In this document: positions 2,478 through 56,416 of the stretch, piece after piece | How positions within the stretch are numbered: the first letter of the stretch is position 1 | Layout: the number at the start of each line of letters is the position of its first letter | From: a virus | IMG/VR virus record: IMGVR_UViG_3300021440_000005 | Location: 1-56,416 of that record | DNA: 56,416 nt | Reading direction: 5' to 3' (one strand) | The notes under the pieces: model-generated | What the model was told of the DNA's origin: nothing | Database searches by the model: none | Seen by the model: only the letters and a program-made list of their open reading frames with translations | Made by a program: the position numbers and the translations under genes

Positions 2478-3119
2478 CTAAGGTGTGCGGAAAACGCGCG
2501 CAATCCATCCCATAAGAAATATTGATTGATTGGGTTTCGATTTTACAAGCTGATGAAAGAAGTTTATGGTCTCAGCTCGGAGTGCCCAGAGTAAACCCTC
2601 ATGATTTTTTATGGCTTTTATAGCTTCAAAAGTTTGTTCTCCAATTTCACCGTCTACAACAATTTGATGTCCGCATGCAATAATGGCTCTTTGAAGAATA
2701 ATGCCAGCCTGTTTTTCACCCATCATGACGCAATTATCGAAAGTTTTAATGGCTATTACTCGATTTGGAATTTCCCCATATCTGCCTACGTCCCAATAAT
2801 TCTTTTTGTAGATATTTTTAGCCTCATTGAGAGAAAGTTTTTTAACATCTACTCCTGGATTAAAATTAGATGCAATTCCATAATTTGTTTCCCCCCCCGC
2901 GTCTAAATCAGAGTTTGAATACCCCCCCTCGTTTTTAAGAACATATTTGAACGCTTCGTCGAAAGAGGGGTATGTTTCAGATTTATATGAGCTCTGAATA
3001 TGGATCGAGCTATAGGCGATTAAAATAATTATCCCTAGTACCAAAAATGTTTTAAAAGAATTCTTAGTTCCAGAAAGAAAATGGATCATTCGGATCAATG
3101 GTTGTTTTTTGGGGCTCAT
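2478..3119 (-). CDS. Endolysin, glycoside hydrolase family 108, signal-anchored
   Basis: A muramidase that cleaves peptidoglycan for lysis. The GH108 signature appears as NEGGYSNSDLDAGGETNYGI at residues 63-82, with catalytic Glu64; YWD and FDN motifs follow, then the C-terminal peptidoglycan-binding-3 part (VDGEIGEQTFEAIK). One hydrophobic segment at residues 23-39, preceded by Lys, makes a signal anchor, so release may be timed by membrane depolarisation. I chose the start at 3119 because AAGGA lies 8 nt upstream; the frame is open to 3155 and Met at 3089 is also possible. It overlaps the preceding virion gene. Confidence 0.88.
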   Translation of the reverse strand: MSPKKQPLIRMIHFLSGTKNSFKTFLVLGIIILIAYSSIHIQSSYKSETYPSFDEAFKYVLKNEGGYSNSDLDAGGETNYGIASNFNPGVDVKKLSLNEAKNIYKKNYWDVGRYGEIPNRVIAIKTFDNCVMMGEKQAGIILQRAIIACGHQIVVDGEIGEQTFEAIKAIKNHEGLLWALRAETINFFHQLVKSKPNQSIFLMGWIARVFRTP

Positions 3120-14809: not shown

Positions 14810-16984
14810 ATGTATCAAAAAAATGATCCCAGTTTAGAAAATCAAAATTTAGTCGATGTTTTGGACAAAGATTATGTGAATGAACTTGGTAGACAGTTAA
14901 AACGTAGGACTGATGACGAATATTCAGCACGTTCAAACTTCATGGAAATTATTCATTCTTCATTGTCGGCATTAGGCTTAACCCAATATCAAAAGGGGAG
15001 AGGCACTGACTCAGGACTTGAATCAGACATTGTCGACTCGACATTTCTGCAGACATGGATTCAAATTAAAAATGAATTTGCTGCAGAGTTACTTGCTCCG
15101 TTTAAGATTGCAAAAACCGACATAGCTCATCGCAATTTACTTAACGCATCGCCCAATGGGAATGAGATGATTTCTCAGTTGGACGTTTATGCTCAAATAG
15201 TTGAAGAAGATATTAACAATAAACTCAATTGCGAATGGTCAGATTGGTTATTTGAAATTAAAAAGGCAATAGGAGCAGCATTTTTAACTGGTTCATCTAT
15301 TAGTAAAGTCTACATGGATCCAGTAATAAACAGACCAGTTTTAAAGATGATTAGTCCTGAAAATATTTTAATTGGTGAACACGAAAGCTCGATAGAAAAA
15401 GCTCGCTGGATCGGTCACATTTATACTCTTACGGAAGAAGAGTTAGATATCTATCAAGCGAAAGGTGTTTTTGCGGCAGTAGATATTCCTCCCGATAATT
15501 CCTACAACGAGCAAAACACTATATCCATTTCTGAACTAGAAAATAGAATTTCAGGTATCGATAGTGCGGCAAAAGATAACGATACAATTAAAAATTATAC
15601 TTTTGTCGAGGTACAGTTTTGGGAATGTGCAGCCAACAACGACGACCCTGCTATATTCACTGGTTCTGAAGAAACGGATTTCACATATTATCCTTACACA
15701 GCACATATCCATAAAGAAACTGGGACTGTTATGGCGATAGATCATGCATGGGATTTAGTTGATGGAGAAATTGTTAAACGTCAAACAATGTTTAAGATGA
15801 CATTTCTTGAGGCTAATGATTTTTGGGGTATCGGTCTAGCCCAGACATGTATTGGACTCCACAAAACCGCAACAAATATCCTTAGAAATCTTACCGATTC
15901 GTTAGCAATTGCGAACTCTCAAACTCTTGTTATGTCGCAGAATTTAGCTCCTCAACAGTCAACTATAACCTTGAGGAATGGTGAAGTGAACTCAATTGCT
16001 TCGCCGAGTGCAGATATAAACGACGCTTTGATGAGGTTGCCTTTTGAACAACCTAGCCCAATGTATATGGATTTTTGGGGACAGTTAAAAGAATCGATAT
16101 CAAAGATGGCTGGGCTTTCATCGGTAACTTTGCAGAACCTTCCACCTAACATGCAGGGGAATTTCCTTTTAGCTTTAATGGATAAAGAAAGCAAACCAAT
16201 GTCTGTTGTTTTGCAAAATTTCCAGTTTGCTTTCAACCAAATGTTTAAATTATTGCACAAGTTGTTAAGAACTGAATGGGCAAATAAACCAATTGCTCCA
16301 AGAGTTTCACCTTTAACTTACGGTGAGGTTTATCACGAATCTATAAATATTATTTCTGCTCTTGATCCGTCAATGTCGAGTTCGGCTGCACAATTAGTCA
16401 GGATGCAAACATTGCTGGATTGTGCTCTTCAATCTCCGCAACTACATGATCTTTCGGCTGTTTATGAGCGTTTGTATAAAATTATGAAGATTGATAACTA
16501 TAAGCAATTATTGCTTCCGCCAGAGGTTCTTCAACAACAACAAGAGCAGGCAATGCAAGCGCAACAGCAAGAACTTGCTGCGCAACAGCAACAACAACAG
16601 GAACAAAACCAAATTCTTATGGCTGACATTGAGAATAAGAAGATGGCAAATGAACAGGAAATAAACCTAAAATTTGAAAAACTTATGTCTGATAATGAAT
16701 TGAACCGGTTGAAAATAATACTTGAGAAAGAAAAGAGCCTGAACAATTTTAGACTCCAGCTTTTAAAAGAAAAAGGTGCAGTCGTTAAACAGAAGAATGT
16801 TGAAATTGCTCAATTGGATAAAGCTAAGAGAGAATATCTAGTAGATAGTGCTGAAATGAAGGCAGCACATGGAATAAGTTTACCAAATATTCCTGAACCT
16901 AAATTAGAGAATTACGATATCGAAGACATGCCTTTGCATGTTGATGATAATAATACTGTTTCAGGCGAACCCAAATTGGGGTAA
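14810..16984 (+). CDS. Portal protein
   Basis: 724 residues, the size of podovirus portals. The N-terminal and middle parts carry the usual portal features: SDWLFEIKKAIGAAFLTGSSISKVYMDP-type wing region near residue 140-170 and the MFKMTFLEANDFWGIGLAQ stretch near residue 330-350 that leads into the clip and stem. The C-terminal ~190 residues are a Gln-rich coiled coil (crown/barrel), with a polyglutamine run near 580. It is the dodecameric DNA channel that docks terminase. Bases 15979-16001 match CRISPR spacer 3 exactly over 23 nt. Confidence 0.9.
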   Translation: MYQKNDPSLENQNLVDVLDKDYVNELGRQLKRRTDDEYSARSNFMEIIHSSLSALGLTQYQKGRGTDSGLESDIVDSTFLQTWIQIKNEFAAELLAPFKIAKTDIAHRNLLNASPNGNEMISQLDVYAQIVEEDINNKLNCEWSDWLFEIKKAIGAAFLTGSSISKVYMDPVINRPVLKMISPENILIGEHESSIEKARWIGHIYTLTEEELDIYQAKGVFAAVDIPPDNSYNEQNTISISELENRISGIDSAAKDNDTIKNYTFVEVQFWECAANNDDPAIFTGSEETDFTYYPYTAHIHKETGTVMAIDHAWDLVDGEIVKRQTMFKMTFLEANDFWGIGLAQTCIGLHKTATNILRNLTDSLAIANSQTLVMSQNLAPQQSTITLRNGEVNSIASPSADINDALMRLPFEQPSPMYMDFWGQLKESISKMAGLSSVTLQNLPPNMQGNFLLALMDKESKPMSVVLQNFQFAFNQMFKLLHKLLRTEWANKPIAPRVSPLTYGEVYHESINIISALDPSMSSSAAQLVRMQTLLDCALQSPQLHDLSAVYERLYKIMKIDNYKQLLLPPEVLQQQQEQAMQAQQQELAAQQQQQQEQNQILMADIENKKMANEQEINLKFEKLMSDNELNRLKIILEKEKSLNNFRLQLLKEKGAVVKQKNVEIAQLDKAKREYLVDSAEMKAAHGISLPNIPEPKLENYDIEDMPLHVDDNNTVSGEPKLG
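15979..16001 (+). other. Perfect 23-nt protospacer-like site for spacer 3
   Basis: Identical to the last 23 nt of spacer 3 (38502-38524), the part of a type II guide retained in mature crRNA and read outward from the PAM. The 3' flank is CGCCGAGTGC. The remaining 8 nt of the spacer do not match. The site lies in the portal gene and the guide has the same sense as the mRNA, so it pairs with the template strand. Confidence 0.93.
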
Positions 16985-21067: not shown

Positions 21068-21457
21068 ATGATACCCCCTATTGATCTTTCAGAAGATGAG
21101 ATTTGTATTTTATTTATTGGTCACCTTGAAGATCTGAAACGAATGAATTTATTGGATTTTATGTACCTTCATATTCCTAATGAAATCTCATCAAATAAAA
21201 ACCCATTTTTTGGCAAAAAACTTAAACGCATGGGGAAAATTAACGGCGCGGCTGATTATTTGATAGCTTGGGAAGGAGGGTATGGATTTATTGAATTTAA
21301 GACCCAAAAGGGTAAGCAAAACGATTCTCAAAAACAATTTGAGAAGGATTGCAAAGCCATGAATATTAAATATGAAATAGCCCGTAGCGTGAGTGATGGT
21401 ATAAAAATACTAAGAGATTGGGGACTTCTTAAGCTAGTTAACTTCAACATTTGCTGA
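21068..21457 (+). CDS. VRR-NUC domain nuclease
   Basis: 129 residues with the PD-(D/E)xK core of the VRR-NUC family: HIPNE near residue 35, GKKLKRMGKINGAADYLI with Asp63, and FIEFKTQKG with Glu76 and Lys78, then a conserved Gln/Phe helix (QKQFEKDC). Stand-alone phage VRR-NUC proteins are structure-specific nucleases, thought to resolve Holliday or branched intermediates before packaging. It is the only plus-strand gene inside the structural operon and its end overlaps the convergent neck gene. Active-site residues are intact. Confidence 0.85.
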   Translation: MIPPIDLSEDEICILFIGHLEDLKRMNLLDFMYLHIPNEISSNKNPFFGKKLKRMGKINGAADYLIAWEGGYGFIEFKTQKGKQNDSQKQFEKDCKAMNIKYEIARSVSDGIKILRDWGLLKLVNFNIC

Positions 21458-22093
21458 TCGATCAGTTCTATTCATTAAATCGGTATTCAATGTATCTTGA
21501 ATAGCTTGAGCTAAAGTTTCTTTGTAAAAGTTAATATAATATGAGTCTTTAAGATAAATATACATTTGTAGTAACGCACCGTAAGACAACACATCCATTA
21601 ATCTTTGGGTAAAGTAATTTGACTGGTTAGTAGGACTTAATGGCTGATATAATTCGTGGAAAATGAATTGAAACCCAAATCCATCATAATTTGGTGAAAG
21701 ATCTACCGGTGTAGGTGTTACAAATAGAGTGTTAACGTCTAGCTCGGAATAATCAGAGGGAATTCCATTAGCTTCATTGGTTGAAGTTACACTTTGGGCA
21801 TATTCATTCAAACGATAAGTTAAAACATGAGCTTCGTTCGAACTTCTTGGGTCATAGAATGTTAGAGAAATAGGTCGAATATACAAATTGGGTAGCTGAA
21901 TAGTCGATTGTCCTTGTCCCCAGGTGCCAATTAAAATTTTCTGCGTTCCAAAAATATTTAATCTTCTAGATAGATCTAATTGTGCAAGCAGAATGAAGTT
22001 TGGCATTTGATCAATCAAATCGGTGTCATTTGGTCTTGCAGAGATCTTGGTCATATAATCGACCAACCCATCATATGTATAAAGAGGGATCAA
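21434..22093 (-). CDS. Head-to-tail adaptor-like protein
   Basis: 219 residues. The start is TTG at 22093, supported by GAGG 8 nt upstream and overlap with the previous stop (TTGA). The N-terminal helix pair (IDQMPNFILLAQLDLSRRLN), beta insert and C-terminal helix (YGALLQMYIYLKDSYYINFY) follow the pattern of phage gp4-like head-completion adaptors. It would form the ring beneath the portal. Confidence 0.65.
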   Translation of the reverse strand: MIPLYTYDGLVDYMTKISARPNDTDLIDQMPNFILLAQLDLSRRLNIFGTQKILIGTWGQGQSTIQLPNLYIRPISLTFYDPRSSNEAHVLTYRLNEYAQSVTSTNEANGIPSDYSELDVNTLFVTPTPVDLSPNYDGFGFQFIFHELYQPLSPTNQSNYFTQRLMDVLSYGALLQMYIYLKDSYYINFYKETLAQAIQDTLNTDLMNRTDRSANVEVN

Positions 22094-28952: not shown

Positions 28953-29729
28953 TTAAGTTGTTAGAGGTTGTACTATGGTAAAAGATTGCGCGTTTGTTGC
29001 GTCAATTCTCACTTTAACCTGGGGGTTTATCACAGGATTTGAACTTGTGGAGTAATCGTCTGGGTTGACACATCCTATTAAACGGGCGGAAATACGCGTT
29101 CCGTTTCCTAAATCATCAAATGCATTTTGCCAGTAAACCCCTGACAATCCATCCACCGCTGTATTTCCCATCGGGAAAGCTAGACTATTAACGGGATTTG
29201 GAGTTGGACTATTTGGCACATCAGGCAAATTAACTTGATAGGTGTTTAATGAAATCAGTGGGCCTTTTGTAAGGATGTCCTGATATTCTACAATTACGCC
29301 TTCATCATTGACCCCACCTGCCTGAACCTGGAATACTCCTTGTAAATCAACGCGGACAACAGCCATCACTTGTGTTTCTGGTTCAATTAAAGTTCCAGGA
29401 ATGAAGTTTGTCGATTGTTTTATATATCCGGGTTGTCCCAAAGGTGTGTACTTGAAACCTTCAAAAACTCCTATAACTGGGGCATAAATCGTTTGAACTA
29501 CTCCCGTCGGAAGCGGATAAACATATCCAGTTGGAGCTTGTGGAACATAATTATTAAATGAGTCGGGTGGAACGGATGCAACGTAGAAGTTTAAAACTGC
29601 CACGTCTCCAGCAAACCCGTACCAACCTCCTGTTGTGGGGAATGGAAACTCTTCGACGCCAGATTGGGCTAATGAAGAGTTGGAATGGCTATATAGAGAT
29701 CGTAAGCCATAAGGTGAAAGAGCTGCCAT
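28953..29729 (-). CDS. Abundant virion protein, copy 2
   Basis: 258 residues, close paralogue of the neighbouring gene: the first ~75 residues differ at only a few positions (MAAL-PYGLRSLYSHSNSS). Pro/Gly-rich beta protein with VMAVVRVDLQGVFQVQAGG and a C-terminal PQVKVRIDATNAQSF. Both copies have the same strong leader (AATAATAAGAAAGG). It lies before the major capsid gene, so a head-decoration protein is likely. Confidence 0.7.
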   Translation of the reverse strand: MAALSPYGLRSLYSHSNSSLAQSGVEEFPFPTTGGWYGFAGDVAVLNFYVASVPPDSFNNYVPQAPTGYVYPLPTGVVQTIYAPVIGVFEGFKYTPLGQPGYIKQSTNFIPGTLIEPETQVMAVVRVDLQGVFQVQAGGVNDEGVIVEYQDILTKGPLISLNTYQVNLPDVPNSPTPNPVNSLAFPMGNTAVDGLSGVYWQNAFDDLGNGTRISARLIGCVNPDDYSTSSNPVINPQVKVRIDATNAQSFTIVQPLTT

Positions 29730-29753: not shown

Positions 29754-30542
29754 TTAAGAAGTTAGAGGTTGAACAATTGCAAAAGATTGAGCGTTGATCG
29801 CATCAATTCTTACTTTAACCTGTGGGTTATAAACAGTCTTAGAACTTGTGGTGTAATCATCGGGGTTTACACAACCAATTAAACGGAAAGGATATGTTAT
29901 TCCTAGTCCATTTGATTGAAACGGTAAGTTATTATCTGAATCAAAGTACAAACTTGACATTCCGTTTTCTCCAGTATTTCCCATCGGGAAAAGCAGAGCG
30001 TTCACTGGGTTTGGAGTTGGACTATTTGGCACATCTGGTAACGTCACTTGATAGTAGGCTAGCGCAGAAAGATAGGATTTTGTTAAAATATATGGTCTTT
30101 CAACGACTCCTTGGCCATCAGAACGCCCTGCTTGCACTTGGTATACACCTTGCATATCAACTCGAACCACAGCCATTACCTGCGTTCCAGGTTGAATTAA
30201 GGTTCCGGGAATGAAGTTTGTCGATTCTTTGATATAACCTGGCTGCCCAAGAGGGGTGTATTTAAATCCTTCGAATACACCGATAACTGGTGCATAAACC
30301 GTATTATTTTGACGTACAGTAGGATAAGGATAAACATATCCAGTTGGAGCTTGTGGAACATAATTATTAAATGGGTCGGCTGGAACGGATGCAACGTAGA
30401 AGTTTAAACATGCTACGTCTCCAGCGAATCCGTACCATCCTCCTGTTGTGGGGAATGGAAACTCTTCGACGCCAGATTGCGCTAAAGAAGAGTTAGAATG
30501 GCTATATAGAGAACGTAAGCCATAAGGGGCAAGAGCTGCCAT
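29754..30542 (-). CDS. Abundant virion protein, copy 1
   Basis: 262 residues and first gene of the 30.5-18.2 kb operon. Nearly identical N-terminal half to copy 2, diverged in the C-terminal third (residues about 145-225), suggesting tandem duplication followed by divergence of an exposed region. Its leader carries AATAATAAGAAAGG and a TACAAT-type -10 upstream. Structural role inferred. Confidence 0.7.
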   Translation of the reverse strand: MAALAPYGLRSLYSHSNSSLAQSGVEEFPFPTTGGWYGFAGDVACLNFYVASVPADPFNNYVPQAPTGYVYPYPTVRQNNTVYAPVIGVFEGFKYTPLGQPGYIKESTNFIPGTLIQPGTQVMAVVRVDMQGVYQVQAGRSDGQGVVERPYILTKSYLSALAYYQVTLPDVPNSPTPNPVNALLFPMGNTGENGMSSLYFDSDNNLPFQSNGLGITYPFRLIGCVNPDDYTTSSKTVYNPQVKVRIDAINAQSFAIVQPLTS

Positions 30543-32152: not shown

Positions 32153-32180
32153 ATGTTTTTTTTAAAAATAAGGAGTGTAA

Positions 32181-35100
32181 ATGAACAGTTTAGGTTTAAA
32201 AATATCATCTAATTTCGTTGCATATTCTCTAATACAAAAGGGGGAAGAGAATAAATTTCTTAGCACTGGTATACACATGTTTAAGGCTAATGAAGATCCA
32301 AAGCTTGGAGGTTCGCTTCAAATAGCCCGTTCTGGATTCAGAAGACGCCGTGCTTGGTTGAAGCGACGAATAAAGCGGTCGATTAATATTAGAAATATAT
32401 TCAAAACTTTAGGAGTTTCTACTTCTCCTAGTTCTGAAGAACTTAGAAAAGTTTGGGATTTGAGAGCAAAGGGATTGGACGAGAAACTTTCCATCCGTGA
32501 ACTTCAGATAATCATAGTTTACATGTCAAAAAAACGTGGGTATAAGTCCAACCGCCTTTCTAACTCACCAGCTAATGAAAATGGGAAGATCCTCGAAGCT
32601 ATTGCACGAACTAAAAACGAGATTAAAGAAGCTGGGGCTCGTACTTTTGGTGAGTTCCTGAAAGACAAACGTCAGAAGCGTAATCGTAAAGGCGAGTATT
32701 TGTTTTTCGCTGACAGAGAGATGATTGAAAATGAATTTGATTTGATTCTTGCTAAACAGCTTGAGTTAGGTTTAGAGGGCATAACTGAAGATCTTGTTGA
32801 GAAGATTCGTGAAGTATTGTTCTATCAAATTCCCATGAAGACTTTAGGTCACTTTGGTAAGAAATGTTACATTTACCCAGAAGAGAATGTACTTCACCGC
32901 GATACTTTTACTGCCAATATTTTTAATCTTTTGCGCAAAATTAATGACCTCAACATTTATCGATACAAACCTGAGTACGAAACCTACACACTTAACACTC
33001 GTCAGATCGGTGAGATTGTCCTCAAGGTATTTGATAAAAAAACTTTAACATATAAAGCTCTTAGAAAGATGTTAGGTCTTTCCATAGACTGGATAATTAA
33101 TATTGAAGAAGAAACTTTAGATAAATCTTTCTTTAATTTCACTTCTTTTCATGACTTATATCCCATATTCTCGAAAGTGGCATCATTTCCTTATGTTTTG
33201 GATAAGGACTCTCCTGAAGATATTTTAGATAACCCGAAAGCGATCAAATTCTATGACGAATTAATTAACTGTTTAGCCATTAACTTTGAACGAGATGAGT
33301 TACTGCATGAAGTTATTAAAGTCTTTGAAGACAATGGAGTTTCTGAATTTTTGGATCTTTATGACAAGGAAGAGGATGACGAGAAGTTTGATATTTATGA
33401 CATAGTTTCTTTAGAGAACTTCACTACTATGCATTCTCTTTCAAAGAAGGCCATGGAATTCTTTATAGAGCATTTCCAATATGGAAAAAGCTATGCAAGT
33501 ATTTTCAATGAACATTTCGCTAAAAACTCTGGTCTTGAAAAGTTGGTTAAGCTTCCACGTTTTGAAGAAACTAACAACTCTGTCATTAACCGAACTTGTG
33601 CCGAAGTACGTAAAGTTATTAACGCACTTAAGCGTGAGCATGAGATTGATGAAATTTATTTCTATTCAGTTCCTGATTTTGGATTAAACATGTCTGACAG
33701 ACGCCGATTAGCTTTCCTTGAGCGCGAACATAAGAAGGTCCGTACTTCACTGGTTGAGCTTTTGAAAGAGATTTGCATTAACGATCTTTCTGAAGAAACC
33801 ATTCAAAAGGCTGTGCTTTGGAAAGAGCAAGGTGAGCGTTGTATCTACACTGGTAAGTTTATAGCCCCAGATTTGCTAAATACTGATCAAGTTTCTATTA
33901 TTAATATTTTGCCTTATGGTGCTACTTTTGATAATAGCTCTGACAACAAGGCTCTCATTTATACTAATCATGACATTAAACGGAAGTCTAAATCCTTAGC
34001 TTTGTTAGCTAAAACAGACGAAAGGATCAATGCAGCTACATTCTTCTCTGATATTCAGAACATGTATAACGACAAGGTTTTGAGACATAAGAAGTATGAA
34101 CGATTGATGACCCTTGAGTTTGATGAAGCTGAGTTAAAACTAAAGAATCGTATGGATAACAGAGTAGTTAACCGAAGAATTATTAACCACTTCTCTTCAT
34201 ATCTTGTCCCACGCGAAAATGTCTTTTCAATTCGCAACAGTGTTGTTGATAACCTGAAAGAATATTTGTCTCTTAATCAATTAGAGTTTAAAGATTCTCG
34301 AGATAAAGTTGATTCAAAATACGAACATATCTTGGACGCAATGATTGTGAACTTCGCATCCAAAGACCTTCTTGAGAAGTCAGCTGCATATTTTGATTCA
34401 GTTGATAAGACGCAGGATTTCACTTATTCCGTGAGTTTTGTCGAGGAGTTAGAAAATGCAAAGATAAACCGTATGATTTCATGTGACGCTTCAGGTTCTT
34501 TGCATGGTAGCACGATTTACAAGCTCCCTAAGAAACTTCGTCACAAATACAAAGAAAATGAAACATTCATGTTATCAGTCAATGAATATTTGGATGAAGA
34601 GAACAGAATAATCAAACGTGTTCCACTTGAAACTATTGATAAAAAGAGCTTGAAAAATTTAGTGTGTAAGCTAGATCCAGGCAAACATTTATATTCAGAA
34701 ATCGTGAAACGTTTAGATAATGAGCCAGATCCAGAGAAGGCTTTTGTTGCCCCTATCTTCTTGAATGATAAGTTTAATCATCCAAAAAGAGTTAAAGAAG
34801 TTGAGATTTTCGTTGAAACACGTTCTGGAATTTTTAAACATCAGGGGGTTGCTGCTAACGGTGACTTCATACGTTTAGACTTGTTTAAGGACACGGATGG
34901 TAATATTTTGAGTTGTCCAATATATGCAATGGACGTTATTCGAGGTAAGCTACCTAATTTCCATATTACTGAAGATGGCTATGAACCGCTGAACTATACT
35001 CATAAGTTTTTGGCATCAATTAACAAAAACCAGAAGGTACTGTTTACGAAGACTAAGAAAGATTCGAAGATGGAAATCACTGGTTTTTTCCTGAACTACA

Positions 35101-35300
35101 ACCGTTCAAACAACGGCGTTCTGCTTACAGACATTATTGTTAAGACTTATAATCATCAGGGTGTATTGCAGGAAAAAGTAAGCATTCTTGAAAATGTCTT
35201 CTACTTGAAATCAGTTGATAATGTGCAGGTATTCCACTACGATATTCTAGAGTCTAAACACCTCATCGACTTTAAGGGTAACCAACCTCAATTCAAATAA
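32181..35300 (+). CDS. cas9: Nuclease-dead type II-C Cas9
   Basis: 1039 residues, normal for a compact type II-C Cas9 and uninterrupted. RuvC-I reads LGLKISSNF, with Lys7 in place of the catalytic Asp. The Arg-rich bridge helix (about 50-72) is intact and is followed by the family's KKRGYKSNR. RuvC-II reads EIYFYSVPD, with Tyr495 for Glu. The HNH domain keeps LWKEQGERCIYTGK (~546-560) but the DHxxPYS core is VSIINILPYG, so Asp/His are Ile574/Asn575, and the later Asn is Ser603. RuvC-III keeps His716 and Asp719. Recognition and PAM-interacting parts are full length. It should bind guide RNA and DNA without cutting. AGGAG precedes the ATG; a terminator follows. No cas1, cas2 or csn2 nearby. Confidence 0.95.
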   Translation: MNSLGLKISSNFVAYSLIQKGEENKFLSTGIHMFKANEDPKLGGSLQIARSGFRRRRAWLKRRIKRSINIRNIFKTLGVSTSPSSEELRKVWDLRAKGLDEKLSIRELQIIIVYMSKKRGYKSNRLSNSPANENGKILEAIARTKNEIKEAGARTFGEFLKDKRQKRNRKGEYLFFADREMIENEFDLILAKQLELGLEGITEDLVEKIREVLFYQIPMKTLGHFGKKCYIYPEENVLHRDTFTANIFNLLRKINDLNIYRYKPEYETYTLNTRQIGEIVLKVFDKKTLTYKALRKMLGLSIDWIINIEEETLDKSFFNFTSFHDLYPIFSKVASFPYVLDKDSPEDILDNPKAIKFYDELINCLAINFERDELLHEVIKVFEDNGVSEFLDLYDKEEDDEKFDIYDIVSLENFTTMHSLSKKAMEFFIEHFQYGKSYASIFNEHFAKNSGLEKLVKLPRFEETNNSVINRTCAEVRKVINALKREHEIDEIYFYSVPDFGLNMSDRRRLAFLEREHKKVRTSLVELLKEICINDLSEETIQKAVLWKEQGERCIYTGKFIAPDLLNTDQVSIINILPYGATFDNSSDNKALIYTNHDIKRKSKSLALLAKTDERINAATFFSDIQNMYNDKVLRHKKYERLMTLEFDEAELKLKNRMDNRVVNRRIINHFSSYLVPRENVFSIRNSVVDNLKEYLSLNQLEFKDSRDKVDSKYEHILDAMIVNFASKDLLEKSAAYFDSVDKTQDFTYSVSFVEELENAKINRMISCDASGSLHGSTIYKLPKKLRHKYKENETFMLSVNEYLDEENRIIKRVPLETIDKKSLKNLVCKLDPGKHLYSEIVKRLDNEPDPEKAFVAPIFLNDKFNHPKRVKEVEIFVETRSGIFKHQGVAANGDFIRLDLFKDTDGNILSCPIYAMDVIRGKLPNFHITEDGYEPLNYTHKFLASINKNQKVLFTKTKKDSKMEITGFFLNYNRSNNGVLLTDIIVKTYNHQGVLQEKVSILENVFYLKSVDNVQVFHYDILESKHLIDFKGNQPQFK

Positions 35301-35311
35301 TTGCTAGTTTT

Positions 35312-35340
35312 CCCCTTCCTTAATAAGAAGGGGTTTTTTT
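35312..35340 (+). terminator. Terminator of cas9
   Basis: CCCCTTC and GAAGGGG form a 7-bp stem with an 8-nt loop, followed by seven T. It lies 12 nt after the cas9 stop, so cas9 is a one-gene transcript. Confidence 0.9.
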
Positions 35341-35418: not shown

Positions 35419-35874
35419 TTAGTGACATGTAAACGAATGATGTTCCTTGAAGGGTCGTTCGAGCTTAACGTCTTTATCTGGGGCGGAAATCACCGTCCGA
35501 CAAATCGTTACCCGGGACTTCTTAGTATTCTTCTTACTCATTCTTTTCCCATCAGCAATCAAGTTCTCTCTGAGCTCATATGTGTTGTGGGCAACTAGGG
35601 TCTCAAGCATTTCGTTGTCGATTTCAGTCATCTTGAACGTGTTTATGAAGTTTTCATATTCAAATTCATACTTGATTAAGGTATTAAAATTTTGTTTAAA
35701 AACAATCCCTATAAACACTGTCTTTGGATAGCCTTGAACGTCAATAACCCCAAACCTGATAGATACTTCTTTGAAGTGAAGATACTTGCCAACCAAACTC
35801 ATATAATCTTTAGGAGTAAAGTTCACATCCGGGTTATCAGTTAAAAACTTTTTTACATCCATTTCATTGTACAT
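35419..35874 (-). CDS. Protein of unknown function coupled to rep gene
   Basis: 151 residues. Beta-alpha N-terminus (YLHFKEVSIRFGVIDVQ), basic middle (GKRMSKKNTKKSR) and His-rich end. The start overlaps the replication-initiator gene by 11 nt, with AAGGA upstream, so it is probably co-translated with it. No family recognised. Confidence 0.6.
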   Translation of the reverse strand: MYNEMDVKKFLTDNPDVNFTPKDYMSLVGKYLHFKEVSIRFGVIDVQGYPKTVFIGIVFKQNFNTLIKYEFEYENFINTFKMTEIDNEMLETLVAHNTYELRENLIADGKRMSKKNTKKSRVTICRTVISAPDKDVKLERPFKEHHSFTCH

Positions 35875-36967
35875 TTATTATTCCTTTTAAAATATTTCCT
35901 ATCGAGAACGCGGACGAGATATGATTTTTCGCGCGGCGCTCCTCGTTACTCATCTCATCAAGGCGCTGAGCATTTCGAATCCGATTCTGATAGTTCATTT
36001 TACGCAGGTAGTTTTTGGCTATGCAAGCGCAAAAGTTGAGGAAATGCTGATCGTTTTTGAATTCCTTATCTTTTATCTGCTGAGAAAACGTATTAATCAC
36101 ATAGTCGAAGGTTCGTTCAACTTTCGAGCAAAATGAACTGTAATTTCGTTTAGACCATGCGTTTTTAAATCTGATTTTCAAATTGTCCAGGTATTCTCGT
36201 TCGAGATGTTTATACTGCCAAGCCTTCTTCGGGGCTTGGAAAAGGTCTTTGTAGTATCGTTTCTTCTCCTCTAAGCTTTTTTTTCTCAAAACATATTTAA
36301 GAGTTTTGTTTAAATTTATAAATTTAATTAACTGTGCGACAAATTCATTTTTGTTATTCACAGCCTTGTTTTTACTTGGCTGTCGCAGCTTCATAACGTA
36401 CTTCGGAGCAAGACGGGTGATCTTAACTTTGAAGCCATTTCTTATCTCAACAGTCTGAGTTAAATATCCTTTTGTAATGAGTTTTTGGCAGTATTCAGAA
36501 ATTGTCTCTCGAGGAATGCCAATTTTCTTAGATATTTCCTGGTAAGATGGGAATTTAAGTGTCGAATAGGCTTGGTAAACGTATACCATATACAATTCCG
36601 CGACATTAATTGTCAGATCGGCTGGGATTTTAGCATTAATATAGACTCCTTGAGTTGGATTAGCGTATTTTTCTGCTAATTTTATAGCAGTATGCGCTTT
36701 TCCATTGAAAACCATAGAGATATACCCTTTTTTCTCGAGGTCATGGAGGTGTTTTTTAACCTGGCTAGTCAGTTGAGTCTTGGTTTTGCTCATATTCCAG
36801 CGTCTAGCGAGCGAAACTATAGGAATTACTCCCTGAAGTTGGATCATAGAAAGAAAAACCATGATCATTCGTTGCGTTTTAGACAGATTTTTGTCATTTA
36901 GCAAACTATTTTCAACGAATTTGAATTTTTCAGTTGACGAAGTGTTATGAAATGGTTTAGAAGTCAT
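35864..36967 (-). CDS. Replication initiator-like winged-helix protein
   Basis: 367 residues with two winged-helix units: LSKTQRMIMVFLSMIQLQ through KKHLHDLEKKGYIS (about 28-85), and FPSYQEISKKIGIPRETISE through KGYLT (about 138-170). The basic C-terminal half resembles phage and plasmid Rep/DnaA-DnaD-type initiators. AAAGG lies 9 nt before the ATG. TTCTTGTTGT repeats lie just upstream and an overlapping leader frame precedes it, as in iteron or leader-coupled plasmid rep genes. No polymerase gene is visible, so host machinery is probably recruited. A regulator is the alternative. Confidence 0.6.
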   Translation of the reverse strand: MTSKPFHNTSSTEKFKFVENSLLNDKNLSKTQRMIMVFLSMIQLQGVIPIVSLARRWNMSKTKTQLTSQVKKHLHDLEKKGYISMVFNGKAHTAIKLAEKYANPTQGVYINAKIPADLTINVAELYMVYVYQAYSTLKFPSYQEISKKIGIPRETISEYCQKLITKGYLTQTVEIRNGFKVKITRLAPKYVMKLRQPSKNKAVNNKNEFVAQLIKFINLNKTLKYVLRKKSLEEKKRYYKDLFQAPKKAWQYKHLEREYLDNLKIRFKNAWSKRNYSSFCSKVERTFDYVINTFSQQIKDKEFKNDQHFLNFCACIAKNYLRKMNYQNRIRNAQRLDEMSNEERRAKNHISSAFSIGNILKGIINVQ

Positions 36968-38088: not shown

Positions 38089-38182
38089 ATAGTTGTTGTG
38101 TTACATCGTAAATATGTAAAAGCTAAGCCTTAGCTTAGCGAGACAGCCTGGGTGGGACTTATCCCACTTGGGTTGTTTTTTT
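38089..38182 (+). ncRNA. tracrRNA candidate upstream of the CRISPR array
   Basis: About 94 nt. TTACATCGTAAAT (38101-38113) can pair with repeat bases 1-14: GUU, then UACGAU after one bulged A, then UAG after one mismatch. Then follow a perfect 7-bp stem (AAGCTAA/TTAGCTT, 38120-38136) and a terminator hairpin (GTGGGA/TCCCAC with flanking pairs) with seven T. Strong promoter, location 143 nt before the first repeat and two 3' hairpins all fit a tracrRNA. The anti-repeat is short and also part of a palindrome found at 30724, so this is a candidate, not proof. Confidence 0.5.
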
Positions 38183-38325
38183 CTATTGAATCCTTTTTTT
38201 CTAACAACTATACTATTTATGAAACTTTTTTATTCATTCTGTTTCAATTTACGATCTCCTCAACCCCAGTTTTTCAAATTTCTGGGGTTTTTTAATATCT
38301 TTGTTTAATTTTACGCTATAACGCA
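38183..38325 (+). promoter_or_regulatory. Array leader region
   Basis: AT-rich leader between the tracrRNA candidate and the first repeat. CCCCAG/CTGGGG (38264-38287) followed by six T is a second terminator; TTTACGATCT near 38248 resembles the repeat start. TATAAC at 38317-38322 may be the array's -10 box, without a convincing -35. Confidence 0.4.
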
Positions 38326-38757
38326 ATTATATGATCTAGAGATATCGGAAGGTAATATACCCGCCGAAGTTTATTACTGCAAACCCAACTGGTTATACAA
38401 TATAGAGATTTTAGTAGGTAATATACCTTCTAACATCCTTCATAAAGAGCTTTCACAGTTTTACGATATAGATATTTTAGTAGGTAATATACCGGGGGTC
38501 TTGGTGAAGTGAACTCAATTGCTTGTTATACGATCTAGAGATTTCAGAAGTTCAAATACCCCCTCATTAGTTATACGCGGGTCGATGAGTTATACGATCT
38601 AGAGAAAGTAGTAGGTAGTATACCCATAAAATGCGGATATATGTTACCACCTAGGTTATACAATCTAATGATTTTAGTAGGTAGTATACCTGAAGCCTTG
38701 AACTTGTCTCCGTCACTATGAGTTATACGATATAGAGATTTTGTTAAGGAGTATTCC
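38326..38757 (+). CRISPR. Seven-repeat CRISPR array with self-matching spacers
   Basis: 36-bp repeats begin at 38326, 38392, 38458, 38525, 38589, 38655 and 38722. The consensus starts GTTATACGATATAGAGATTT and ends AGTAGGTAATATACC. First, fourth and last copies are most degenerate. Spacers are 30, 30, 31, 28, 30 and 31 bp. The GTT start, terminal inverted repeats (GTTATAC/GTATACC) and 36/30 geometry are typical of type II-C. Spacer 3 (38494-38524) ends with 23 nt identical to 15979-16001; spacer 6 (38691-38721) matches 3553-3583 in 27 of 31. Spacers 1, 2, 4 and 5 have no convincing match here. The matching ends support plus-strand orientation. Confidence 0.93.
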
Positions 38758-38794: not shown

Positions 38795-39361
38795 CTAAGC
38801 ATCTTGTCCAGATTTAAGTGGGTCTACGTTAATCTTAATCTCAGGGTCGTGAAGACGTTTAGGTACACCTAACGAATCCTTAATCTGAATACTCTTGTCA
38901 TGATATTCACTAGCAGCCTTCTTGGATTGATTAGATCCCCATATGCACACTCCCGATATCATGCCAAACACAACGCCTAGCATGTTAGCTAATCGTGCTT
39001 CCATGAAACCAGCTGCACCTATTGCTGACACTAACATAGATCCAAAAGTCGAAAGTGCTCCTAACACACTAGAACAAACATTAATTTTATGACAACAGCT
39101 GGCACTATCCGATAAACTCTTTTCTTCTTTTATCAGATCTTCAACTTGATTCTTCAAGTATGCGTGCCTGTCGAACAACGTCTTAGGGTCAACCGGATCA
39201 AACGAGTGCATCGACTTCGGACGGGGAGAAGAAGGAATTGTCTCGCTTGACCTTCTTGTTTCTTTACCTGGATGTTCGGGGACTAACTCTTGTGAGTCGA
39301 ATGGCTCAGCAGCTGCTAAAGAAGTAATGCATACCGATAAAATTAAAGGAGTAGTCTTCAT
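38795..39361 (-). CDS. Secreted membrane-associated protein
   Basis: 188 residues from the ATG at 39361. MKTTPLILSVCITSLAAA is a signal peptide with cleavage after AAA. A Pro/Ser-rich linker, a short coiled coil (~60-85), a Cys cluster (SASCCHKINVC) and two hydrophobic helices (SSVLGALSTFGSMLVSAIGA and ANMLGVVFGMISGVCIWG) follow. An extended -10 (TGGTATAAT) lies upstream at about 39413-39405. The type is common in intracellular alphaproteobacteria and unlike the surrounding phage genes, so it may be host-derived cargo. Confidence 0.7.
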   Translation of the reverse strand: MKTTPLILSVCITSLAAAEPFDSQELVPEHPGKETRRSSETIPSSPRPKSMHSFDPVDPKTLFDRHAYLKNQVEDLIKEEKSLSDSASCCHKINVCSSVLGALSTFGSMLVSAIGAAGFMEARLANMLGVVFGMISGVCIWGSNQSKKAASEYHDKSIQIKDSLGVPKRLHDPEIKINVDPLKSGQDA

Positions 39362-39391
39362 TTGGGCCTGTATTATTATTATTCGAACCAA

Positions 39392-39986
39392 TAATATTAT
39401 ACCACTAATTGAGATATTGTTTTCATATTTAATCCTCGTATCCTGCGTATAAAAATCGTCCCTATAGCTTCATACTAGCAGACAGAAATTTTTACCTACT
39501 GAATTATATAAATCGTAAGTTATAAACTTTATTTGAATATGCGAGTCTTACCTACTGAGTCATTGCCCCACAAGACTGCACCTTCTTAAATATTCATAGT
39601 ACTTACTAAACAATACAAAAGTTATACTTTTGTTTTACACCCCATAAGTTTTATCCCTATTCAACGATTAATCATACAAATAATGTTCATGTTGTTGTAC
39701 TGATTTATAGTCAACCCTGTAAGGTCATACAGTTCAAAAAGAATGCTCAAATTTTACAAAACAGGATTTATAGTCATACATGTAATTACTTGAGATTAAT
39801 TAAAACGACTTTTCCGTCTCTATATAGCAATAAATGTACTTTACTTGAGAATACTTTTATTAGCTATACATGTTAACTCTTTATATCCAGGTTTTAATGT
39901 TAGTATTATTGATACAATATTTAAAAGAGGTGTTTATACTCTTCATACGCTTGAAAATTAAATGAAACATTAATAGGAGACTATAC
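39392..39986. other. AT-rich intergenic region with repeat remnants
   Basis: 595 nt without a convincing gene. On the minus strand near 39485-39522 a degenerate copy of the CRISPR repeat is visible (ACGAT, then CAGTAGGTAA at the right spacing); CAGTAGGTAA occurs again at about 39558-39549. Several TATAC/CATACA motifs recur. The dnaK ribosome site (AGGAG) ends the region. Confidence 0.5.
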
Positions 39987-43131: not shown

Positions 43132-44010
43132 GTTGGGTGTAGTCAAACAAACTGAAGTTGCATCATTAGATCATTTCTGAAAAAGAATCTTACTCTAGCA
43201 TAGTATGTTATACATTTAGTCTGCTTCTTGTTATACACTTGTTCGAATAGATGACGTACTTCTAAAAAAGACGTGTAATAGACATACCCTTTCCAGATTA
43301 GAACTTACTTGAGTAAAGGTCATATAAATATTTGACATGTAGAAATACATACAACTGGTTTCAACTTATTGCGTTATACAATTAGTCTAACTCTAATTGG
43401 TAACATAGATCTGAATTCATACAATACATTTAGTTATATTAATACACTTTGTAATAATACATATATTTTCATACAGTACCCCATTATACAGATTTTAGTT
43501 AAATAAGGACTCAAGCATGTACATTTTAATATGCCTGTTAAATTATACAGATCACTGCGGCTAACCGTCATACAAATGTAAATAAAACTCCATTATTATA
43601 TAAAAATAGTAGGAAAGATGTGTCTCAGACATACAGATTTAAGGGAAAAACCGCATGGATGCTGGCGGGATTCGGGTCTTTGGATTATACTTAAAAAAAT
43701 CCTGGGTGTGTGAGGGGGGACAAGCGCGTTACGCGCAAAGCGAGGGGGGTCAACTCGGAATTCCCAGCATGCTTCGCCTTTTCTCACCAAACCCTTTTAA
43801 CAAAAGTAATAATGTCATACGCTTAAATTTGTTTTACATATTCTTTATGATCCATCCTACACCATACCCCCTACCATTTATTCAATAATTACAGAGAGTA
43901 TCCCGATTCAAGATGAACATTATACATCCACTATCTTTATAATCTTTTTATTTGACTTTGTAGTAGTACTACCAATACTTTAGGGATGATAAATTATATA
44001 GGAGTACAAG
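43132..44010. other. Long intergenic region with eroded repeats
   Basis: 879 nt, no gene supported. GTTATACA followed by TAGTCT occurs at about 43207 and 43373; the latter ends 36 nt on with GGTAACATA, like a decayed CRISPR repeat. TTATACAGATTTTAGT near 43484 resembles a repeat with its middle deleted, and TTATACAG recurs at 43543. A G/C-rich palindromic element sits at 43652-43780. AGGAG-like sequence before 44011 serves the resolvase. Confidence 0.5.
43652..43780. repeat. G/C-rich palindromic element
   Basis: The outer arms, around 43652-43672 (GCATGGATGCTGGCGGGATT) and 43759-43779 (GAATTCCCAGCATGCTTCGC), are imperfect inverted repeats. Inside are GCGCGTTACGCGC and G-runs. Unlike the AT-rich surroundings it looks like a bacterial extragenic palindromic repeat, consistent with host-derived DNA. 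Confidence 0.5.
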
Positions 44011-50614: not shown

Positions 50615-52348
50615 TTATCTTACAGCTTGACTCGCTAATTTCAAAGCAATTTCGCGCTGAATTTCTTCATATTCGTTATCTTCGGATATCAGAACATTAG
50701 TATTCATCATCAATCCTACAATTTCGATAGCGTTTGTAATCGTTTCAATTGCTACATTGACTGGGTCGAGAACTCCGTTCTCAAATAAATTTACTTGATT
50801 ATCTTCCACGCTCTTAGTTGGATCAAGCATTTTCAAGTTATAACCCTTCCAAGTTTTCAAATCTTCAGAATTATTTTCTGGTAAACGAAGATTTTCATTG
50901 TAGTTTATGGTAATCGATTTGTACAAATCGTGCACAGTTTTTACAAATGCATTGCTAATTATGGACTTTAAAGAAGGATATTCTTCTTTTAGCTGGTTAG
51001 CTAAATAACTGAAAACGGTACATCCACCTGGAACTACGCCATGTTTTCTTGCAGATTGAACCGCACAAATTGCATCTTCAACTCGATCTTTTGTTTCTTT
51101 CGTGGACTGGGATGTTTTACCTCCAACAGAAATAATTGCTACGCCATCCGCAAGTCTCGCCAATCGTGAGCCTTGATACGCAGCTTCAGAATCTTCAGTA
51201 GTTTTGTCCATCAAGTCGCGAATTTTAGTAGATTGTTCTTTGATAATGTCAGCTCGATCTGGACTTGGCAAAATAACTGTCTTGTCCATTTTACATATAA
51301 TTCGCTTAGCTGAACCCATATGCTTGACCCTAGCTGCGTTTCTCCCTGAAAGTGGTCCTAACTCTAATGCGTTCTTATTAGAAATAACTTTGCCACCAAA
51401 CACTATTTCGAGGTCGGTGTAAATATCATTAATTTGATATTCGTCCAAACCATGAAACATTTTGTTTAAAGAAATGCAGCAGCAACGGAAGAAATTCCCG
51501 TTTTCTTTGATGTTTGTAACCAAACCTGCTTCTGCGATAAAGGAAATATCTTTTGCAATAAGAACGAATGGTCTTCCAATAATCTTTGGATCTTCAGAAG
51601 AGAAGAAGTCAGCGAAAATATGTTTAATTTGCTCCCAGGAGCGAATCTCAATATCAGTCAAAACTATAGCTGGATCGTCGAGCGAGCATTCGATTTTACC
51701 TGCTTGGTTTGAATAATATTGAGATGTCATTCCCACAGGGAGGTATACTCCCTCACTAGAAAATACGGTAGTCTCTTTGTTTTTTGATTCCTCCATAACA
51801 AAGTTTCCATCTTTCCCAAGTTTCGATAATCCTTCTGCGATAATTTTTACTATCTCCTCATCTCCATTTGAAGAGGTGTAGGCTACCTTCTTTAGGATTT
51901 CTTTATCTTCTTCGACGTCTATTTTAATCTCTTCAAGCTTATCAACCAGACGTTTCCCAATATTCTTCATTTCTGCCACTTCTTGTGTAGAGAATGGGAT
52001 AGATTCGCCGGAATTCATACCCTCGAAAGTTCTTGAATCCAGAGCGGAGTTTAAAAGATGACGAGCAAATATAATAGCCGTTGTTGTTCCGTCCCCAACT
52101 CGATCAACTGTTTTTAACGAAACTTCTTTAAGAGAATTTAAACCCATGTTCATAAAAGTGTCCCGAACATTAGTTTCACGCGCAACCGAAACACCGTCTT
52201 TAGTTGATTTAGGCAAACCCATACGTGTTTCAATCATTACGTTCGCTCCGCAAGGGCCGAACGTTGATGAAACAGTTTTGTAAAGCGTTTCCACGCCTGC
52301 TCGTAATGCTTCACGAGCTTCTGAACCGTATAAATATTTTTTAGCCAT
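50615..52348 (-). CDS. GroEL-like chaperonin, divergent
   Basis: 577 residues, slightly longer than bacterial GroEL. ATP-site motifs are kept: STFGPCGANVMIE, KDGVSVARE and DRVGDGTTTAIIFA; also PGGCTVFSYLA and the final DPxxV segment (VLDPVNVAIETITNAIEIV). The Gly-Gly-Met tail of bacterial GroEL is absent. The apical domain is strongly diverged, so substrate or co-chaperonin preference probably differs. Likely folds capsid or other phage proteins; the two GroES-like genes at 13.5-14.5 kb are possible partners. Last gene of the minus-strand run. Confidence 0.9.
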   Translation of the reverse strand: MAKKYLYGSEAREALRAGVETLYKTVSSTFGPCGANVMIETRMGLPKSTKDGVSVARETNVRDTFMNMGLNSLKEVSLKTVDRVGDGTTTAIIFARHLLNSALDSRTFEGMNSGESIPFSTQEVAEMKNIGKRLVDKLEEIKIDVEEDKEILKKVAYTSSNGDEEIVKIIAEGLSKLGKDGNFVMEESKNKETTVFSSEGVYLPVGMTSQYYSNQAGKIECSLDDPAIVLTDIEIRSWEQIKHIFADFFSSEDPKIIGRPFVLIAKDISFIAEAGLVTNIKENGNFFRCCCISLNKMFHGLDEYQINDIYTDLEIVFGGKVISNKNALELGPLSGRNAARVKHMGSAKRIICKMDKTVILPSPDRADIIKEQSTKIRDLMDKTTEDSEAAYQGSRLARLADGVAIISVGGKTSQSTKETKDRVEDAICAVQSARKHGVVPGGCTVFSYLANQLKEEYPSLKSIISNAFVKTVHDLYKSITINYNENLRLPENNSEDLKTWKGYNLKMLDPTKSVEDNQVNLFENGVLDPVNVAIETITNAIEIVGLMMNTNVLISEDNEYEEIQREIALKLASQAVR

Positions 52349-53748: not shown

Positions 53749-55455
53749 TTATCTATCTAGGCGCATTTTATCGCGATAATCGTAGTCTTTTAACTTATAA
53801 ATTGTTGCCTCCATAGCTTCTTCATATCTTTGTGGCTTGTAGTGTTCCTCGGTTCCGATATATTTTCTATCAGCTAACCAGTCGATCGTCATGGTAAAGG
53901 TGTCCATCAGATCGCGAGCTTCCCCAACTACATGGGGGAACTGTGTGCAAATATCGATAAATCTTTCTCCAAAATAATCAGCTTTCCCGATATAGGGATA
54001 TTTGCCCATAACATAAACTCTGCCAGATTCAACGTACGGTTGCGTTAAACGAGCACGCATAGTTTTACCGTCTTCCGTCTTCCCATACTTGGTTGTTCCA
54101 AGCGCGGGAGGAGTGTACTGCAACGCGTTTAATCCAATTTCTCTTAACGATTGCGCTAGCGAAATACCGTTCGCTTTGGCTTCAATAAGTAAATGCGTGC
54201 ATGGGTAACTACCTTCCATGGGATTGGCTAAGTCAGTATCAAAAATATTTTTAGACATACGAATAACCATTTTTCTTAGGTCATTCCATTCCACCCTTCC
54301 ATACCAGAATGATAACAACATAACGTTGTACACTCCACGTTCGTCGCGGAATAGTCCGTAGCTCGAACATGCAGAAAATGAGGCTGTTGAAGATGTCGAA
54401 ATTGCTGTGTCCCAAGAAGTAATGATAAATTCGAATGGAGGAAGTTCACCGTGATTCCAAACCTTAAACCAGTTTCTCTCGAAGATACCACCCGAAGTAG
54501 GCAACGGTTCACATTGATAAAGTGACGAATAAGCTAGGGGTGACATTGTTGAACGAATGAATTCGTGTTGTTCGACGGAATGTCTTTCCGGGTTTATGTA
54601 TTCATTTTCGAATGTTCGGGGGTCTTGCCATAAAATTTTATCTGAACCAGGAAGATACGTCGTGCATCTTCTTGCAGATTTGAATTGAAAAGGTATTTCA
54701 ACACAAACTGTTCCGGGCAAATTCTTAGCTTTAACGTGTCCAAACAAATCATTCGGATGCACTCTGTGCTGACCAATTAAAAAACGTGTTGTTTCGGGGT
54801 CGATTTGACGATGGATAAAAATATTATCAAAATCTTCGCAAACTTTTTCGATTGAAGCTACATTATTTTTGTCTTTAATGTTGTTCGGGTCGTCGAAAGA
54901 TATAATCGTCCCTCCTCCGGAGGTGATCTGCCCACCATAAGAAGCAGCAATTCTTTCTCCACCTAGGTTGTTTTGGGTGATCATGCGATTTTGTTTTGTT
55001 AGGTAGAAATCCATTCCGAATAATTGTTGAAATGCAGGATGACGAATAATGTTCTGCATATACTCATTATCTCGTGTCGCATATCTTTCCGCGTAACAAG
55101 TATTTAAAAAACGTTCTTTGGGATTTTTTATCCATATCCAAGCTGGATAGATTACGTTCCAAAAAGTGGATTTTCCTTCTTTGGGGGGTTCCGTCCAAAG
55201 AAGAAACTTAATTTTGTTTTCCTGGAAAGCTTTTCCGTGTATGACACGGGCTTCAAATGAGTAACCCTTTTTTAAAGGAGTAGATGTTCCAGCATAAGGC
55301 CAAAAATCTTCCGTGAATGCGCCTAGATCGTTTCGGTACTTTTCTTTCAATTCATTAATTAATGGATCAACCGCTCCGTTAAGGAGTTTCTCAATACCAT
55401 TATATTTTGATTTGATACGATTTACTTCCGCGTTTAACGCTTTTAAATTAGCCAT
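53749..55455 (-). CDS. Terminase large subunit
   Basis: 568 residues. ATPase: Walker A TEPPKEGKST (88-97), Walker B IISFDDPNN (~184-192). Nuclease: ITSWDTA and LLIEAKANG, with an acidic later motif region (GEARDLMDTF). It cuts and pumps DNA into the prohead through the portal. The leader shows the TAATAAGAAA motif. Both domains look intact. No small terminase is adjacent; candidates are the HTH protein at 14462 or the protein at 31056. Confidence 0.93.
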   Translation of the reverse strand: MANLKALNAEVNRIKSKYNGIEKLLNGAVDPLINELKEKYRNDLGAFTEDFWPYAGTSTPLKKGYSFEARVIHGKAFQENKIKFLLWTEPPKEGKSTFWNVIYPAWIWIKNPKERFLNTCYAERYATRDNEYMQNIIRHPAFQQLFGMDFYLTKQNRMITQNNLGGERIAASYGGQITSGGGTIISFDDPNNIKDKNNVASIEKVCEDFDNIFIHRQIDPETTRFLIGQHRVHPNDLFGHVKAKNLPGTVCVEIPFQFKSARRCTTYLPGSDKILWQDPRTFENEYINPERHSVEQHEFIRSTMSPLAYSSLYQCEPLPTSGGIFERNWFKVWNHGELPPFEFIITSWDTAISTSSTASFSACSSYGLFRDERGVYNVMLLSFWYGRVEWNDLRKMVIRMSKNIFDTDLANPMEGSYPCTHLLIEAKANGISLAQSLREIGLNALQYTPPALGTTKYGKTEDGKTMRARLTQPYVESGRVYVMGKYPYIGKADYFGERFIDICTQFPHVVGEARDLMDTFTMTIDWLADRKYIGTEEHYKPQRYEEAMEATIYKLKDYDYRDKMRLDR

Positions 55456-55640: not shown

Positions 55641-56416
55641 TTAAATTCTTGCTTCTAAGTCATCAATTCTACTTTTTAACTTTTTCATCTCATTTAGTAA
55701 TAGAACACTCAACATACTGTAGTTAATAGAGAATGGTTTTTTTTCATTATAGCAGACGAGCTCCGGAATTATTTTATCGACTTCTTCAGCAATCATACCA
55801 AAACATTTTTCTCCCGAATCTATATGCGTATAATTGACGGGACGTAAATCATAAATCTTGTTAGTATCAATAGTTAAGTCGACTATATTCTTTTTGAACT
55901 TTTTACTGGAAGCCAACAAGTAAATGCGATTTCCTGATCTTACCAAAGCTGTGCCTGTTCCACTGGTAGTGATATTAGGCATATTGATGTCTTGTTGGTT
56001 AAGATACAGGGATGTACCAAAAAGACTGGTCGTTGCAACCCCAGTATTAATGTTAACATCCTGGTTATTCGAAACGACGTTTAACGCACCTGTCAAACTT
56101 AGATTCGCAGTAGTCAGAAAAGTAGCCGCTGTTCCTGTATTTATAACTCCGGCTGCATTGTTAGTAGTAAAGTTGAACGCGTTATTGACATAAAAAGTTC
56201 CACAAGTAACGTTAAAATTCGCTGTTCCATTAAAATATGACGCTGTGTTTCCAAAATTTACTTGAAAACCACCTGTTGTTTGCGAATAACCGTTACTCGC
56301 AGTAAGCAACCCTCCGCTAGAAACTGCTCCAGAAGAAGTAACCGAAGTAGCAGAAACGCTAGCCAGCGTTGAATTTCCGTTTACAGAAAGAGTACCAGAA
56401 ACAGTCTCGTTGCCGG
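55641..56416 (-). CDS. Tail fibre with S74 chaperone domain, C-terminal part
   Basis: This is the continuation of the gene starting at 559. Bases 56312-56416 duplicate 1-105. The last ~95 residues form an intramolecular chaperone/peptidase S74 domain: SSKKFKKNI, then IYDLRPVNY, then FGMIAEEVDKIIPELV, ending in a coiled coil (LLLNEMKKLKSRIDDLEARI). In this family the domain trimerises the fibre and is then cut off by a Ser-Lys mechanism; the conserved SxxxKxxI start is present. The preceding ~120 residues are repetitive fibre sequence. A stem-loop at 55554-55581 lies downstream, before terminase. Confidence 0.9.
   Translation of the reverse strand, partial: GNETVSGTLSVNGNSTLASVSATSVTSSGAVSSGGLLTASNGYSQTTGGFQVNFGNTASYFNGTANFNVTCGTFYVNNAFNFTTNNAAGVINTGTAATFLTTANLSLTGALNVVSNNQDVNINTGVATTSLFGTSLYLNQQDINMPNITTSGTGTALVRSGNRIYLLASSKKFKKNIVDLTIDTNKIYDLRPVNYTHIDSGEKCFGMIAEEVDKIIPELVCYNEKKPFSINYSMLSVLLLNEMKKLKSRIDDLEARI
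56312..56416. repeat. Second copy of the terminal repeat
   Basis: Exact copy of bases 1-105; see that entry. It encodes part of the tail fibre on the minus strand. Confidence 0.95.

Follow-up and report, generated by a model that had tools for sequence, protein, structure and literature searches.

A phage-borne, type II-C-like Cas9 that appears to have lost both nuclease sites, near a degenerate CRISPR array with spacers resembling the phage's own genes

The DNA analyzed in this work is the IMG/VR virus record IMGVR_UViG_3300021440_000005, a stretch of 56,416 bases that is referred to in its entirety as the window. On its plus strand, it encodes a Cas9-like protein of 1039 amino acids (aa) (32181-35300), recognized by profile, alignments and fold, in which catalytic residues of both the RuvC and the HNH nuclease are replaced. 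A degenerate array of clustered regularly interspaced short palindromic repeats (CRISPR), which did not feature in the first-pass annotation of this DNA, sits 3 kilobases (kb) downstream of cas9 on the same strand (38326-38757). It is composed of seven repeats of 36 nucleotides (nt) with consensus GTTATACGATCTAGAGATTTTAGTAGGTAATATACC and spacers of 28-31 nt, and its closeness to cas9 is as expected of a type II system.

The cas9 open reading frame begins with ATG and runs through 1039 codons with zero internal stops, as the first-pass annotation had stated. A ribosome binding site (AAGGAG, 32170-32175, plus strand), recognized by sequence, is located 5 nt upstream of the ATG, and an intrinsic terminator consisting of a hairpin with a T-run (35312-35340, plus strand) follows the gene. 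These two earlier predicted signals hold, whereas the promoter predicted alongside them is unproven, as the candidate is a 9/12 match and 30 such sites occur in the region against 29.8 expected. The TIGR01865 Cas9 profile covers residues 3-993 (8e-88, 295.8 bits for a curated cut-off of 100) and Pfam HNH_4 matches residues 554-605. The nearest homologues share about 28% identity at most. Among solved structures, NmeCas9 is the top sequence match (9.9e-56). An AlphaFold2 model (predicted local distance difference test 75, predicted template modelling score 0.52), for which rows from annotated plasmid records were left out of the input, displays a Cas9 fold, with RuvC, bridge helix, REC, HNH and WED/PI, along its entire length. 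Its best structural matches are all Cas9 proteins, such as Nme1Cas9 in the catalytic state (6jdv; Z 26.9 over 911 residues, root-mean-square deviation 5.4). The protein is probably a type II-C-like Cas9: the closest solved structures are the II-C Nme, Hpa, Geo and Cj Cas9s, and the record offers no adaptation genes for typing.

To compare the active sites, the window Cas9 was aligned with 106 homologues from plasmid and phage records, IMG/VR and 80 genome loci (107 Cas9s in total). Columns with ≥ 90% conservation (n = 80) were considered near-invariant, and the seven catalytic columns are near-invariant across the 107 Cas9s. Five of these seven are replaced in the window Cas9, namely D7K in RuvC-I, E495Y in RuvC-II and D574I, H575N and N598D in HNH; only H716 and D719 of RuvC-III are retained. 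In the pairwise alignment with NmeCas9, K7, Y495, I574, N575 and D598 face Nme D16, E504, D587, H588 and N611, respectively, and H716 and D719 face the RuvC-III His and Asp. The set expected of an RNA-guided endonuclease Cas9 (D, E, H and D in RuvC; D/E, H and N in HNH) is incomplete here, and no obvious candidate for a substitute acid or histidine was found near the lost sites in the aligned strands. The first-pass annotation had correctly named the replacements at positions 7, 495, 574 and 575 and the two retained residues. Its third HNH residue, Ser603, is ruled out by the alignment, which puts Asp598 opposite Nme Asn611. The check it had proposed, structure prediction with alignment to II-C Cas9s, returns a Cas9 fold with five catalytic positions replaced. 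Judging from these alignments, both nuclease sites of the window Cas9 are gone.

The losses are unevenly distributed over the protein. The window Cas9 keeps 45 of the 80 near-invariant positions. With approximate region borders, placed manually on the basis of the alignment, it keeps 11/30 in RuvC I/II/III, 11/18 in HNH and 24/30 in the bridge helix, REC and WED/PI together (15/17 in REC alone). The difference in retention between RuvC and the bridge helix/REC/WED-PI regions is significant (Fisher, p = 0.0014). This pattern agrees with a relaxation of constraint on cutting while the parts that bind guide and DNA remain constrained. In a FastTree tree, the terminal branch of the window Cas9 measures 1.75 substitutions per site versus a median of 0.26; its placement as sister to L094 was set aside as probable long-branch attraction. 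The open frame is not due to chance, since shuffling its bases (200 shuffles) gives a mean of about 76 in-frame stops with a minimum of 55, against 0 observed. The dead Cas9 thus looks selected rather than decayed, because the nuclease sites are lost, the binding parts are better kept and array spacers match the phage itself. The first-pass annotation had likewise proposed selection for binding without cutting with conserved flanking domains; the better retention of the binding domains agrees with this.

The array repeats are pairwise 67-92% identical and score 29-34 out of 36 against the consensus, whereas the next best site in the window reaches 23/36. Tandem Repeats Finder does not call the array, presumably owing to the strong divergence among its units. 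We infer the array orientation from the GTT start of the repeats and the positions of the mismatches of spacer S3. Cas1 and Cas2 were absent from the record, with positive controls, although the record may be incomplete. Because of this absence, spacer acquisition has probably ended, unless the missing genes reflect such incompleteness.

Spacers were searched against the window, with the array masked, and against G120, the 1.39-Mb alphaproteobacterial genome of a relative of the likely host, using 200 shuffles per spacer. Two spacers match genes of the phage itself. Spacer S3 (38494-38524, plus strand) matches 25/31 bases (null 19.1 ± 0.9, maximum 24; 0/200 shuffles) of a protospacer-like site at 15971-16001 (plus strand, 3' flank CGCCGAGTGCAG) within the gene of the SU10-type portal protein (14810-16984, plus strand). 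All six mismatches are located in its first eight bases and are followed by 23 matching bases in a row; this unbroken part would be proximal to the protospacer adjacent motif (PAM) if array transcription runs as oriented above. Guides of II-C systems are 22-24 nt long, about the length of the unbroken stretch. Spacer S6 (38691-38721, plus strand) matches 27/31 bases (null 19.4 ± 0.8, maximum 22; 0/200 shuffles) at 3553-3583 (plus strand, 3' flank CCCATAGAATAC), in a minus-strand gene of the structural region that encodes a 764-aa protein (3064-5358). Two of the three codons changed by its four mismatches alter the amino acid. The own-window matches of S2, S4, S5 and S7 are not significant at the DNA level, and for S1 6/200 shuffles were as good. 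S7 has a suggestive match at the protein level (KWIITRG/KWILTQG) in gene 5355-6263 (0/29 shuffles). Targeting of G120 was rejected, as no spacer has a convincing DNA match there.

Two candidates for a guide RNA partner were identified. A candidate anti-repeat of a trans-activating CRISPR RNA (tracrRNA) lies between dnaJ and a DNA invertase gene (43373-43407, minus strand) and would pair with the best repeats at about -28 kcal/mol; the signal is weak, as 13/200 dinucleotide-shuffled repeats do equally well at some place in the window. A candidate small RNA of about 98 nt with a presumed start (38089-38187, plus strand) lies shortly before the array and has an extended -10 promoter, a hairpin and a strong terminator. 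It was rejected as a well-pairing tracrRNA because it forms only weak duplexes with the repeats (-7 to -12 kcal/mol). Neither candidate has a match in Rfam.

On balance, we favor the reading that the protein is a natural catalytically dead Cas9 (dCas9) derived from a II-C-like ancestor, which is guided by the phage and binds late genes of kin or of the phage itself without cutting, in the manner of CRISPR interference. The dead Cas9 would act as an RNA-guided DNA-binding protein of the phage. Its guides would be supplied by the phage's own small, ageing array, which would be fixed because Cas1 and Cas2 are lacking, and at least two of them would be aimed at late or structural genes of the phage and its kin. 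Bound to DNA that stays uncut, the protein may form a roadblock to transcription or replication. It could thereby exclude superinfecting relatives by silencing their structural genes once they are in the same cell, an option suggested because S6 matches the phage's own gene poorly in the seed. Alternatively, it could restrain the phage's own late genes during persistence, an option suggested because S3 still matches the own portal gene without interruption over 23 bases on the PAM side. We infer expression, guide processing, the identity of the tracrRNA, binding and its effect, and either of these two options may apply.

Several observations weigh against this reading. Of the 73 non-catalytic near-invariant positions, 30 are lost, so nucleic-acid binding could be impaired as well, and a test restricted to the seven catalytic residues shows no significant enrichment of losses (p = 0.23). 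No close homologue of the window Cas9 was found, including in a single-protein scan of IMG/VR, which leaves no relatives for a ratio of nonsynonymous to synonymous substitutions. At the targets, S6 has three of its mismatches no more than 10 nt from the PAM side. Pairing of the S3 guide would be with the template strand, the orientation in which dead SpCas9 makes the weaker roadblock. For five of the seven spacers, neither the window nor G120 contains a significant DNA match, and a pattern search of IMG/VR did not find exact S3 or S6 protospacers in kin phages. Both the promoter of the array and the tracrRNA are unproven.

Other explanations have to be weighed against the favored one. The locus might be a relic in decay, i.e. 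a once active phage CRISPR-Cas9 system with a frame that is not yet broken and an array that is drifting. Such an origin would account for the long branch, the loss of 35/80 near-invariant residues, the repeats that are just 67-92% alike and the lack of Cas1 and Cas2. It would not account for a frame with 0 of about 76 expected stops, for losses concentrated in the nuclease core (RuvC versus the binding domains, p = 0.0014), for the good ribosome binding site and terminator of cas9 or for the 23 unbroken matching bases of S3, and we regard it as rather unlikely.

We also judge it unlikely that the protein serves as a decoy anti-CRISPR, in which a dead Cas9 and a phage tracrRNA would sequester host CRISPR RNAs (crRNAs) and block host type II immunity. 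There is a published phage precedent in RuvC-dead Cas9s (PMC10910872), but these come without an array, whereas the window has seven repeats and spacers of its own. The candidate anti-repeat at 43373-43407 could provide the tracrRNA, yet it pairs with the phage's own repeats. Moreover, there is possibly nothing to decoy, as Cas9 is absent from both host relatives with DnaK 94-96% identical and from a third genome of their order. Very unlikely, finally, is an array-independent regulator, in which the dead Cas9 and a dedicated small RNA (e.g. 38089-38187) would act as a repressor and the array would be incidental. The candidate RNA next to the array, about 98 nt long, does have a promoter and a terminator, but it pairs weakly with the repeats, its binding by Cas9 is an assumption and two spacers match the phage genome significantly.

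Two further altered Cas9s were identified among the IMG/VR records. L014 (9989-13054 of IMGVR_UViG_3300047175_000060) has a RuvC-II E to K and an HNH H to Y change; its contig carries Cas1 after Cas9, a glycosyl hydrolase 108 gene and a near-perfect seven-repeat array, none of whose six spacers matches its own contig. L016 (5895-8975 of IMGVR_UViG_3300047170_000189) has D to T, D to S and N to A changes and a strongly degenerate array with reversed units beside it (9032-9786). Catalytic changes of this sort are seen in 0/80 genome loci. The losses in L014 and L016 look independent of that in the window Cas9, because both branch at other places in the tree; few cases are involved, and non-viral DNA may be present among the IMG/VR contigs. 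L018 was rejected as a dead Cas9, as its HHAVDA motif is displaced in frame rather than lost. In Pasteurella multocida NZ_CP113523.1 (L002, 3001-6144), an unannotated Cas9 frame with a stop adjoins annotated cas1 and cas2 and is probably a broken cas9.

The assignment of the record to a tailed phage is well supported by its gene content: besides the portal protein, it encodes a terminase large subunit (53749-55455, minus strand), an SU10-type adaptor (21434-22093), a tail fiber (55641-56309), an ERF-like protein and a further head protein. The first-pass annotation had spoken of a phage-plasmid. The terminase, portal, adaptor and tail fiber bear out the phage half of this term, whereas the plasmid half rests only on a replication-initiator-like protein that adjoins cas9 (35864-36967, minus strand; winged helix-turn-helix, O-like and DnaD-like PHROG matches). 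Portals from phages of Roseobacter, Pelagibacter and others share 21-23% identity with that of the window. Relatives of the portal and of gene 3064-5358 were not found in IMG/VR, nor was the portal found in the order of G120. Tandem paralogues of 258 and 262 aa (28953-29729 and 29754-30542, minus strand), 79% identical and possibly capsid or decoration proteins, have no match in INPHARED or IMG/VR.

Several further stretches resemble the repeat or its reverse complement (39486-39530 and 43208-43560; TGTATAAC motifs and TTACCTACTGA); they are perhaps vestiges of former repeats, or else elements akin to promoters. A small secreted or membrane-like protein beside the array (38795-39391, minus strand) has a 41% identical homologue in G120 and is possibly host-derived. 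The segment 39949-43134, comprising dnaK, dnaJ and the upstream region, is 84.5% identical at the nt level to G120 (DnaK 96% at the aa level) and to G224. It has phage genes on both flanks and a GC content of 43-46% versus 37% for the window. Given the phage genes on both sides, the similarity to host relatives and the deviating GC content, either the phage recently acquired chaperone genes from a host or the segment was joined in during assembly. A divergent GroEL-like chaperonin (50615-52348, minus strand) is 30% identical to the GroEL of the host relative and falls below the curated GroEL cut-offs.

Among known systems, the phage II-C Cas9s of Altae-Tran et al. 2023 (PMC10910872) come closest, being phage-borne, II-C-like and catalytically altered with a candidate tracrRNA nearby. 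They are RuvC-dead with an active HNH, lack an array and have an SNF2 helicase alongside, and a crRNA decoy function was proposed for them; such RuvC-dead phage Cas9s also feature in a review (PMC11656645). In the window, the HNH residues D, H and N are replaced too and a self-matching array is present. In view of that report, the earlier claim that natural dead Cas9 in phages is essentially undescribed was overstated. Virus mini-arrays target close relatives, with spacers that deviate from the corresponding locus in the carrier itself (Medvedeva et al. 2019, PMC6858448). The altered own sites of S3 and S6, which match imperfectly and for which exact kin sites were not found in IMG/VR, recall this arrangement, whereas the unbroken stretch of S3 would allow self-binding. 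Mini-arrays consist of 1-2 spacers and come without cas genes, whereas the window phage has seven repeats and supplies a dead Cas9 itself. Type V-M Cas12m and type IV systems likewise interfere by binding only, are carried on mobile elements and act in competition between elements (review PMC11656645), but their effectors are unrelated to Cas9.

The window Cas9 shares fold, size, bridge helix and the HNH and RuvC scaffold with Nme1Cas9 and other II-C proteins, and differs in its replaced catalytic residues. Cas9 is also employed for gene repression in Francisella, with scaRNA, and in tracr-L autoregulation; these are active nucleases on bacterial chromosomes that use partial-match guides. The literature searched, which left most subscription journals and preprints outside its scope, yielded no report of a phage Cas9 that is dead in both domains and accompanied by an array of its own with matches to phage structural genes, and the combination appears new.

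That a Cas9 evolved to be dead in both domains and, with fixed phage guides, silences late genes of kin or of the phage itself, as a form of natural RNA-guided repression in phage conflict or lifestyle, is a possibility that we put forward tentatively. The independently altered viral Cas9s L014 and L016 suggest that the phenomenon may recur. dCas9 has so far been an engineered tool; a natural version, if true, would mean that evolution reached Cas9-based CRISPR interference unaided, and it would offer a directly testable system for phages that use CRISPR parts on each other or on their own genes.
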